This document shows, one piece after another, positions 15,524 through 17,759 of a DNA stretch of 64,000 bases (position 1 is the first letter of the stretch; each line of letters opens with the position of its first letter). A model generated the notes under the pieces. It had not been told where the DNA came from. It saw only the letters and a program-made list of their open reading frames with translations, and made no database searches. A program made the position numbers and the translations under genes. Origin of the DNA: Anaerosolibacter sp. (GTDB taxonomy: Bacteria > Bacillota > Clostridia > Peptostreptococcales > Thermotaleaceae); contig NZ_JARBTM010000011.1 of assembly GCF_029240175.1 (NCBI RefSeq), positions 62,001 through 126,000 on the forward strand, read 5' to 3'.

Positions 15524-15727
15524 TTAGAATCCTATGCCCCCAAAGAAGCCGCCTGAGAATAATACGATGAGCAATAGAAAGAAGAATAACAAGCTTGAAT
15601 CATCTCCAAACCCTATTACTGATCCGAATATAGGACCACCAAATAGCACGACCAACAACAGGAAGAAGAAAAGCAAACTGTCATTCCCTCCTAAAAAATC
15701 ACCAAAACCAGCTTTTTTATCAGTCAT
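15524..15727 (-). CDS. Tiny duplicated hydrophobic glycine-rich membrane protein
   Basis: A 67-residue protein made of two copies of one unit: GFGDFLGGNDSLLFFFLLLV and GFGDDSSLLFFFLLLIVLF, each ending in VLF plus G/S-rich residues. Each copy can form one membrane helix. The unit resembles the very small Phe/Leu- and Gly-rich proteins common in spore-forming Firmicutes, often linked to spores; this is an inference. The start MTDKK (15727) has a perfect GAGGAGGTG on the minus strand, which overrules both the track start at 15736 and the opposite-strand ORF 15534-15758. Confidence 0.75.
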   Translation of the reverse strand: MTDKKAGFGDFLGGNDSLLFFFLLLVVLFGGPIFGSVIGFGDDSSLLFFFLLLIVLFSGGFFGGIGF

Positions 15728-15920
15728 AAATTCCACCTCCTCTACAAAACTTTCATAAATGCAGAACTCCTACAAATTGTTCTTCTAGTATACACTATGA
15801 ATTAAAGAGGATATGTGTTACAGTCCCAAAGTGAATAATCGATGTGTAATCGGATAGTAGGGCATGAATTTAAATGAGGTCAACTGGAATAGTGAGAGGT
15901 TCAATGGAAATAAAAAAGTA

Positions 15921-15949
15921 TTTACAATGAAAAAATCCTATGCTATCAT
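15921..15949 (+). promoter_or_regulatory. Promoter of the hom leader
   Basis: TTTACA, 17-base spacer, then TGC-TATCAT (extended -10). Transcription would begin near 15956, just ahead of the first riboswitch-like element. Confidence 0.65.
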
Positions 15950-15967
15950 AAGGTAAATGAATAAGAA

Positions 15968-16055
15968 CTTATCAAGAATTAGGGTAGAGAGTTAGCTCCA
16001 TGACCCTATGCCAACCTGCTAGAAATAGCAAGGTGGTCCTGCTAACAACGATAGG
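15968..16055 (+). ncRNA. SAM-clan-like riboswitch candidate (variant aptamer)
   Basis: The folding topology matches the S-box clan although the sequence is not canonical. P1: CTTATC 15968-15973 with GATAGG 16050-16055. P2: TAGGGT 15980-15985 with ACCCTA 16003-16008. The P2 loop GTTAGC (15991-15996) can pair with GCTAAC (16041-16046) after P3, reproducing the S-box pseudoknot. P3: ACCTGCTA, GAAA loop, TAGCAAGGT. 'CTTATCAAGA' and 'GCCAACC...GGTG' echo S-box core sequences; a P4 and the kink-turn are absent, as in SAM-IV or SAM-I/IV types. Its own terminator follows at 16087. The ligand is not proven. Confidence 0.6.
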
Positions 16056-16086
16056 GAGGTATAGAGACTTTACTATACGGGAATGT

Positions 16087-16120
16087 AATCCTTCTTAGCG
16101 CTGTTAAGAAGGATTTTTTA
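16087..16120 (+). terminator. Terminator of the first hom leader element
   Basis: An 11-bp perfect stem (AATCCTTCTTA, loop of 7) is followed by a T-run. It lies 30 bases after the variant aptamer and before the second one, as expected for a transcriptional attenuator. Confidence 0.85.
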
Positions 16121-16140
16121 ATTCATTAACAATTAAATAT

Positions 16141-16256
16141 TCTTATCTAGAGAGGTGGAGGGACTGGCCCGATGAAGCCCAGCAACAGCTAATTTGAAGA
16201 TTTGCTTTGAGTTAGAAATGTGCTAATTCCTGCAGCGTTTTTGCTGAAAGATAAGA
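16141..16256 (+). ncRNA. SAM-I (S-box) riboswitch
   Basis: Canonical S-box core: TCTTATC opening P1, 'AGAGAGGTGGAGGGACTGG', 'CCCGATGAAGCCCAGCAAC', 'GTGCTAATTCCTGCAG', then 'GAAAGATAAGA' closing P1. P4 is CAGC/GCTG. In P3 the usual ACC/GGT pairs are ACA/TGT, a compensated change. The RNA binds S-adenosylmethionine and normally switches off methionine-pathway genes; here it precedes homoserine dehydrogenase, which supplies homoserine for methionine. Confidence 0.95.
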
Positions 16257-16289
16257 GGCAAGTATGGACAACAACGTTGTTTGTTGCGG

Positions 16290-16324
16290 AAACCGCTTCT
16301 TTATTTTAGGATGCGGTTTTTTTA
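16290..16324 (+). terminator. Expression-platform terminator of the S-box
   Basis: AAACCGC pairs with GCGGTTT, followed by seven T. It lies between the S-box and the hom ribosome binding site. A CAACAA/TTGTTTG hairpin at 16270-16286 could belong to the antiterminator. Confidence 0.8.
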
Positions 16325-16371
16325 TATTTATAAAGACCATAAGTAAATTCATTAAAGAGGGGAGAAAAAAT

Positions 16372-17607
16372 ATGAAAATTGGTTTATTGGGATGTGGAAC
16401 AGTAGGTACAGGCGTGTATGAAATGATTTATAACCAGAAGGAGAGGATAGAAGAGCTTTACGAAGAAAGTGTAGAAATTAGTAAAATTCTTGTAAAAGAT
16501 AACATGAAGTGCAGAGATATCGAAGATATTGATCACCTCATAACCATAGATCCCTATGAGATTCTAGATGATTCGTCCATTCATCTAGTTGTAGAAGTCA
16601 TTGGCGGTGTCACTGAGGCATATGAATACATTACCTATGCCCTGAATAATGGAAAACATGTAGTGACTGCCAACAAAGCGGTGGTAGCCAAGCATATGAA
16701 AGAGTTTCTTGAATTAGCAGAAAAAAATAGAAGGGCATTGCTCTTTGAAGGAAGCGTTGGAGGAGGAATTCCATTATTAAAACCTCTAAAACAGTGCACA
16801 TTGTTGAATGAGTTTTCAGAGGTGAGAGGAATCCTCAATGGAACCAGCAACTTTATTCTTACAAAGATGATGCAGGAAGATCTAGAGTTTAAGGACGCCC
16901 TAGGTATTGCCCAAGGGCTAGGATATGCTGAGGCAGATCCCACTGATGATATAGGCGGTGCTGATGTAGCAAGGAAATTAGCAATTTTAGCAACAATTAC
17001 TTTCAAAAACGATGTGAATCTGGATGAGGTATCGTATAGGGGTATTGAGCAAATCACGAAAGCAGATATTCGATTCATTAGGGAAATGGGGTATTCAGTA
17101 AAGTTGTTAGGTAAAGCGGTTGTAGATAATAGAGCTTTTTCTGCGCTAGTGGAGCCTGTACTTTTCAAAAACACGACGCAGTTTGAAAAAGTGGACAATG
17201 CATTTAATATGGTCTCAGTCAAGGGAAACAACTTAAAAGAACTAAGGTTTTATGGAGAAGGTGCAGGCAGGAAGGCTACAGCAAACGCAGTTGTATGTGA
17301 CATCTTAGATGTACTTAGCGGTTCCTATCGGAAGGACGTGGTACATAGAGGTAGAGATATAGCGGCGTTTGGGACTAAACTTATCCAAGGAAAGTATTAT
17401 ATCCGAATCACCCTTACTAGTGGAGCAGAGGAAAGTTTAGTAAAGGATGCCTTTCGGAGAAGAAAAGTGGACTTTCACAAGTTGAAAGTAGAAAAAGAAT
17501 TAATTCTGTTGACAGAAAAAATAGGTGCAGATATGGCAGAAGATATTATAAAAGAACTAGAGAGATATAACCTTTCTTGTTTCTACTGTAGAATAGAAGC
17601 TGAGTAA
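16372..17607 (+). CDS. hom: Homoserine dehydrogenase
   Basis: NAD(P)H-dependent reduction of aspartate semialdehyde to homoserine, the branch point to methionine and threonine. The N-terminal Rossmann motif is 'GLLGCGTVGTGVYEM'; catalytic-domain blocks are 'VTANKAVVAKH', 'FEGSVGGGIPLLKPL', 'RGILNGTSNFILTKM' and 'GYAEADPTDDIGG'. The C-terminus carries an ACT-like regulatory region of about 70 residues. 411 residues is typical. ATG 16372 follows AAAGAGGGGAG; the track's extension to 16264 would begin inside the riboswitch platform and is rejected. Control is by the tandem leader RNAs. Confidence 0.96.
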   Translation: MKIGLLGCGTVGTGVYEMIYNQKERIEELYEESVEISKILVKDNMKCRDIEDIDHLITIDPYEILDDSSIHLVVEVIGGVTEAYEYITYALNNGKHVVTANKAVVAKHMKEFLELAEKNRRALLFEGSVGGGIPLLKPLKQCTLLNEFSEVRGILNGTSNFILTKMMQEDLEFKDALGIAQGLGYAEADPTDDIGGADVARKLAILATITFKNDVNLDEVSYRGIEQITKADIRFIREMGYSVKLLGKAVVDNRAFSALVEPVLFKNTTQFEKVDNAFNMVSVKGNNLKELRFYGEGAGRKATANAVVCDILDVLSGSYRKDVVHRGRDIAAFGTKLIQGKYYIRITLTSGAEESLVKDAFRRRKVDFHKLKVEKELILLTEKIGADMAEDIIKELERYNLSCFYCRIEAE

Positions 17608-17673: not shown

Positions 17674-17759
17674 TGGTGCCGAAGGAGGGACTTGAACCCT
17701 CACGGGTGTTACCCCGCCGGATTTTGAGTCCGGTGCGTCTGCCATTCCACCACTTCGGC
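17674..17759 (-). tRNA. tRNA-Leu (anticodon CAA)
   Basis: On the minus strand the acceptor arm GCCGAAG pairs with CTTCGGC, followed by A and an encoded CCA. The anticodon arm is CCGGA-CTCAAAA-TCCGG, giving CAA, which reads UUG. It has the long variable arm of class II tRNA and a 'GGTTCAAGTCC' T-arm. Confidence 0.96.

Follow-up and report, generated by a model that had tools for sequence, protein, structure and literature searches.

A predicted P4-less sub-type of the SAM-I riboswitch paired in series with a canonical S-box upstream of homoserine dehydrogenase in Anaerosolibacter sp.

In Anaerosolibacter sp., a homoserine dehydrogenase gene (hom) is preceded by a leader that contains two aptamer-terminator modules (Table 1); it lies at positions 15956-16371 of the 64,000-nucleotide stretch of DNA analysed here (the window). 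An initial annotation had proposed exactly this, a variant aptamer with a terminator followed by a canonical S-box with its own terminator, and both modules are borne out. By its sequence relationships, module 1 belongs to a distinct and conserved SAM-I sub-type without the P4 helix; it is not a decayed S-box. The two modules quite probably act as SAM-operated transcriptional OFF terminators in series on a single transcript; the identity of the ligand, the direction of the switches (OFF), co-transcription and any benefit of a series arrangement are what I infer from the evidence below.

Results

Layout of the leader

The promoter-like site listed in Table 1 is the only sigma-70-like site on the + strand within 15700-16400, and its predicted start, at about 15956, agrees with the start suggested by the initial annotation. 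Module 2 is recognised by Rfam without ambiguity; its terminator, with a loop longer than 8 nt, was overlooked by the terminator scan and was identified from sequence and fold.

Table 1. Features of the hom leader (window positions).
Feature	Position	Strand	Basis or remark
Promoter-like site, TTTACA-17-TATCAT, TG before the -10 (extended -10)	15921..15949	+	10/12 matches; consensus match only
Module 1 aptamer, predicted P4-less SAM-I variant	15966..16059	+	RF00162 40.3 bits; family model R1; pair counts
Module 1 helices	P1 15968-15973/16050-16055; P2a 15980-15985/16003-16008; P3 16010-16037	+	
Pseudoknot 5' strand, GUUAGC, in loop L2	15991..15996	+	Covaries with 16041-16046; 57 sequences, 98.5% paired
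Pseudoknot 3' strand, GCUAAC, in the P3-P1 joint, occupying the site of SAM-I J3/4 and P4	16041..16046	+	
P1 3' strand and next bases, potential antiterminator strand against the terminator 5' arm	16050..16059	+	Fold of 16046-16104; complementarity in most relatives
Small hairpin linking aptamer and terminator	16059..16078	+	Folding only; not conserved in family
Module 1 intrinsic terminator, 13-bp stem (16087-16115) then T-run	16087..16121	+	Fold and terminator scan
Module 2 aptamer, canonical SAM-I riboswitch	16140..16257	+	RF00162 88.1 bits against a 44.4 cut-off; model 1-108; all four helices
Module 2 terminator, stem AAACCGC/GCGGTTT (GCGGTTTTTTT = 3' part), long loop, T-run	~16290..16323	+	Sequence and fold
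hom, homoserine dehydrogenase, 411 aa, ATG at 16372, GAGGGGAG upstream	16372..17607	+	NCBIfam NF004976, 402.6 bits

The genome has three hom-like genes (G000:C24, C19 and C35), one of which is the window copy, and among the sequence examined around the three the SAM leader was seen only at that copy. A weaker SAM match in the same genome (L015) is a canonical S-box truncated by the end of a contig. A tRNA gene (17677-17759, - strand) adjoins hom on its downstream side in the opposite orientation.

Module 1 and known riboswitch families

Module 1 matches RF00162 with 40.3 bits (E 4.3e-8 for 246 bases) and does not reach membership by the curated score of 44.4 bits; the P4 helix and four-way junction of RF00162 are absent from it. 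The segment 15956-16121 folds more stably than shuffled controls (z -3.1). DNA similarity to module 1 was found nowhere outside the window in the bacterial family.

Several other identities were ruled out. Against SAM-I/IV (RF01725) module 1 scores 39.3 bits in the window, under the 41.1 cut-off, and this score together with the presence of the P2 internal loop and a covarying PK-1 excludes that family; one relative of module 1 (G092, 41.9 bits) lies slightly above the cut-off. No RF00634 match appeared in nine variant-bearing genomes with E allowed up to 1, which excludes SAM-IV. The GGTGG motif suggestive of a T-box lies within P3, no space is left for a stem I, and other Rfam families match only at chance level. 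The spermidine-binding variant is likewise excluded, as both J1/2 and the internal loop of P3 are unaltered and the pocket changes of that variant (PMC10853860) are absent; no polyamine genes occur among the downstream genes examined for P4-less modules.

A conserved family without P4

A covariance model built from module 1 alone and run on 395 genomes of the order matched 27, comprising 25 with true relatives (54-96 bits) and two with canonical S-boxes (L096 and L097). In a class-wide search at least 17 of 391 genomes contained the variant, a lower bound given that few candidates were scored per genome. When 84,980 species genomes were scanned by pattern, 47 stretches emerged, 46 of them upheld by the covariance model and the last (L125) interrupted by a run of N. 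These are found in the Clostridia (Alkaliphilus, Anaerovirgula, Clostridium, Clostridioides, Tissierella, Caldicoprobacter, Acidaminobacter and Sporosalibacterium) and, outside that class, in Erysipelotrichaceae and in Synergistota (Pyramidobacter, Fretibacterium and Dethiosulfovibrio). Within the genome that holds the window, the family model matched module 1 only and left every canonical S-box unmatched; this result, together with the conserved relatives, identifies module 1 as a member of the sub-type. RF00162 scores of the P4-less relatives range from 35 to 58 and straddle the 44.4 cut-off, so that Rfam puts members on either side of the SAM threshold and annotation is inconsistent.

The alignment (A2) comprises 57 distinct P4-less sequences, 56 of them full-length, all built on P1, P3 and a P2 that bears a kink-turn signature. 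In 56/56 full sequences a joint of just 12-14 nt connects P3 to P1, which means that P4 is absent. The kink-turn, recognised by its sequence signature only, consists of A21-G37 (55/56), U-A or G-A at 20-38 and a three-nucleotide bulge at 34-36. The pseudoknot between L2 and the joint occurs as GUUAGC/GCUAAC, GUCAGC/GCUGAC, GUUGGC/GCCAAC, UUUAGC/GCUAAA and other variants, and its helix is 98.5% paired over the 57 sequences with two-sided changes in 4/6 pairs. The alignment model left the 3' pseudoknot columns unpaired, and therefore covariation there was not built in; among loci retrieved by pattern, the search constrained part of the 5' side and left the 3' side free. An equally good alternative is a 3-bp P2b plus a 5-bp pseudoknot, with the last base of the loop strand shared with P2b. 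Some P3 loops have only 3-4 nt (L094), and thus the PK-2 of SAM-IV and SAM-I/IV cannot fit.

Three further loci (L159-L161) are P4-less with a long pseudoknot (UUUGGC/GCCAAA) and retain the G43-C59 pair of SAM-I (GCAACC...GGTGC). From their sequences they are possible intermediates between SAM-I and the P4-less sub-type.

The sub-cut-off Rfam score of module 1 is what would be expected of a degenerate S-box copy without function. Yet the family is conserved across many genera, where changes in its helices are compensated and its core does not vary, the P4-less module stands alone before many methionine genes, and its own terminator and antiterminator are preserved. Degeneration is thus a highly improbable explanation.

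Ligand of the P4-less sub-type

Taking the SAM-I contact positions from published work (PMC3764141, PMC6890682), A6, U7, G11, A12, C44, A45, A46, C47, G56, U57, G58, A87 and U88 are retained in 56/56 sequences. The motif CCAACC (C44-C47) was forced by the search pattern in pattern-found loci, the remaining contact positions being unforced. At the edge of the pocket, the pair 43-59 is C-G in all 56 full sequences as against G-C in SAM-I, where position 59 is no more than 5 A away from SAM (PMC6890682); in module 1 this pair falls at 16011/16036.

The P4-less module lies before metK (L101, L110, L145), metF (L112, L118, L138, L149) and metN or metNI (L080, L087, L102, L115, L117, L129, L142), and other genes behind it include metY, metA, hom and luxS-metH; a sample of these gene calls was verified with NCBIfam. 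Stand-alone modules precede metK, metF, metNI and luxS-metH, all of them methionine or SAM genes, and the luxS leader of C. difficile, a P4-less copy, has been catalogued simply as SAM-I (PMC11477304). With the pocket nucleotides kept and the downstream genes all serving methionine supply or SAM synthesis, SAM is most likely the ligand of the sub-type, module 1 included.

The initial annotation had also suggested a second ligand, and with it a two-input NOR gate. Module 1 would then read S-adenosylhomocysteine, for example, or another compound of the methionine cycle. Some of the evidence leans that way: the flipped 43-59 pair is universal among the 56 full sequences, the two architectures occur in fixed order, luxS acts at the step that recycles S-adenosylhomocysteine, and ligand-switched SAM-I variants do exist, as the spermidine example demonstrates (PMC10853860). 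Nevertheless, every other pocket nucleotide is retained, stand-alone copies precede metK, metF and metNI, and the unflipped G43-C59 pair survives in close P4-less relatives, so that the change could be neutral. The second ligand is thus not supported by the retained SAM contacts or by the genes behind the stand-alone relatives, luxS-metH among them, and I regard it as unlikely.

Other neighbours of P4-less modules

P4-less modules also precede small orphan proteins. One, of about 105 aa (MNTTGFIRGYMAKNM...RSQYIQYCFG; L104, L108, L113, L122, L131, L137, L159, L160), belongs to no Pfam or NCBIfam family, has no PDB relative by sequence or by fold despite a confident predicted model (pLDDT 88) and is absent from the phage and plasmid collections searched. 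A second (RVRGGxxFxxAMFRFTA..., about 100-150 aa; L091, L107, L139, L154, L157) is without a Pfam family, and in L154 it gives the impression, from sequence, of being fused to an acetyltransferase-like domain. A third, with the motif MTPEELExFKKERYEKFxKPL (L074, L075, L077, L109, L111, L124, L127, L134), either makes up a whole protein of about 60 aa or forms the C-terminus of one of 116-130 aa, and its reading frame looks broken in L072. Genes that resemble defence genes in sequence (HsdM-like, DNA cytosine methyltransferase-like and caspase-like) lie near the leaders L072, L074 (L143), L077, L104 and L114.

Tandem leaders

I identified 13 distinct tandem leaders, and in 13/13 the P4-less module comes first and the canonical S-box second. 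They precede hom (the window, L073, L082, L147), metA or metA-hom (L078, L079), metY or metY-metA-hom (L098, L103, L105, L132, L140, L153) and metN (L142); L147 and L153 were assigned on a sequence motif alone. No tandem in the opposite order turned up in the upstream sequence covered, about 1 kb. In L076 the second module is reduced to a remnant, and in L128 a run of N occupies its position. Two relatives of the window are tandems of two canonical S-boxes, L065 before metF and L066 before a gene cluster containing an aminotransferase.

A strong extended -10 promoter-like site lies 13-27 nt upstream of module 1 in 11/13 tandems (10/12 excluding the window), and the mean score is 10.2 before module 1 versus 7.6 for the best inter-module site. 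A promoter between the modules, the observation that the initial annotation named as counting against a common leader, has no comparable candidate in the window by the sigma-70-like site scan, nor in the 12 other tandem leaders (0/13).

Discussion

As I picture the mechanism, a single transcript starting at about 15956 would cross two SAM-operated OFF switches on its way to hom. The module 1 aptamer, lacking P4, would be stabilised by the kink-turn-like P2 and by the 5-6 bp pseudoknot of L2 with the P3-P1 joint. Bound SAM would hold P1 and let the module 1 terminator form; without SAM, the 3' strand of P1 would instead pair with the terminator's 5' arm, letting RNA polymerase continue. Module 2 would then apply a second, identical test about 80 nt downstream, such that hom would be expressed only with both modules unoccupied. 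Meeting the same ligand twice would reduce leak and make the dose response modestly steeper, as in a pseudo-cooperative tandem.

In most relatives the terminator 5' arm (CCUUCUUAUC) is complementary to the P1 3' strand and next bases (GAUAAGGAGG), and in the window, in a fold of the isolated segment 16046-16104, the antiterminator pairing is UAGGGAGG with CCUUCUUA. The fold of the whole leader favours P1 and the terminator even without ligand, which counts against the switch model. Nearest-neighbour folding is unable to reveal a ligand-driven switch.

A steeper response, also anticipated in the initial annotation, is an expected consequence of the series: by calculation, two equal OFF switches bring the 90-10% range down from 81-fold to 40-fold, and their termination efficiencies multiply. 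Constants 100-fold apart would leave the response scarcely sharper than that of a single switch. This bears on another reading, in which both modules bind SAM with clearly different affinity or speed, and the leader responds over a broader, or staged, span of SAM instead of more sharply. The differing architectures and their fixed order in 13 leaders fit such staging, seen beside the canonical-canonical tandems that also exist in the bacterial family, but the order could stem from common descent of one tandem leader. I consider staging a tentative but substantial possibility. In either case a shared ligand alone does not explain why the P4-less module always precedes the canonical one.

The tandem pairing of SAM switches before hom is a known kind of arrangement. 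Tandem SAM-I riboswitches have been reported as 164 doublets and termed pseudo-cooperative (PMC9481103), and a SAM-SAM tandem lies upstream of hom1 in Bacillota (PMC12452182). These likewise place two SAM-type aptamer-terminator modules in series, but the first module here is P4-less and not a second canonical S-box, and the main texts of both papers do not distinguish a P4-less sub-type. The metE NOR gate of SAM-I and AdoCbl (PMC9481103) also has two serial OFF modules before a methionine gene, whereas its ligands differ and here both are most likely SAM. A known leader with two different SAM aptamer architectures in fixed order shares that pairing; its second module acts on translation, while both modules here are expected to terminate transcription.

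Among single aptamers, the sub-type resembles SAM-I (RF00162) in P1, the kink-turn-signature P2, P3, the pocket nucleotides, the pseudoknot of L2 with the P3-side joint and the logic of P1, terminator and antiterminator. It differs in the missing P4, in a longer pseudoknot (5-6 bp) placed in a 12-14 nt joint and, in most members, in the flipped 43-59 pair. SAM-I/IV (RF01725) and SAM-IV (RF00634) have the same SAM core, and SAM-IV is also without P4 between P3 and P1 (PMC6890682). However, both have PK-2 (PMC6890682, PMC2864571), for which P4-less P3 loops can be too short, and SAM-I/IV is without the PK-1 and P2 internal loop that the P4-less sub-type possesses (PMC6890682, PMC2864571). A literature search that lay mostly outside subscription papers yielded no account of the P4-less sub-type or of its fixed 5' position, and both seem to be undescribed.

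SAM-I is among the best-studied riboswitches, and P4 belongs to its textbook architecture. A family with no P4, no PK-2 and one longer pseudoknot would add a further peripheral solution around the SAM core, beside those of SAM-I, SAM-I/IV and SAM-IV. The tandems, in which this family is strictly paired with a canonical S-box, would provide natural leaders that compare two architectures in series, probably with one ligand. If the P4-less aptamer did favour another ligand of the methionine cycle, the tandems would be natural, widespread NOR gates with two inputs that act on the synthesis of homoserine and methionine. Finally, the copies that precede uncharacterised small proteins may point to new SAM-regulated genes.
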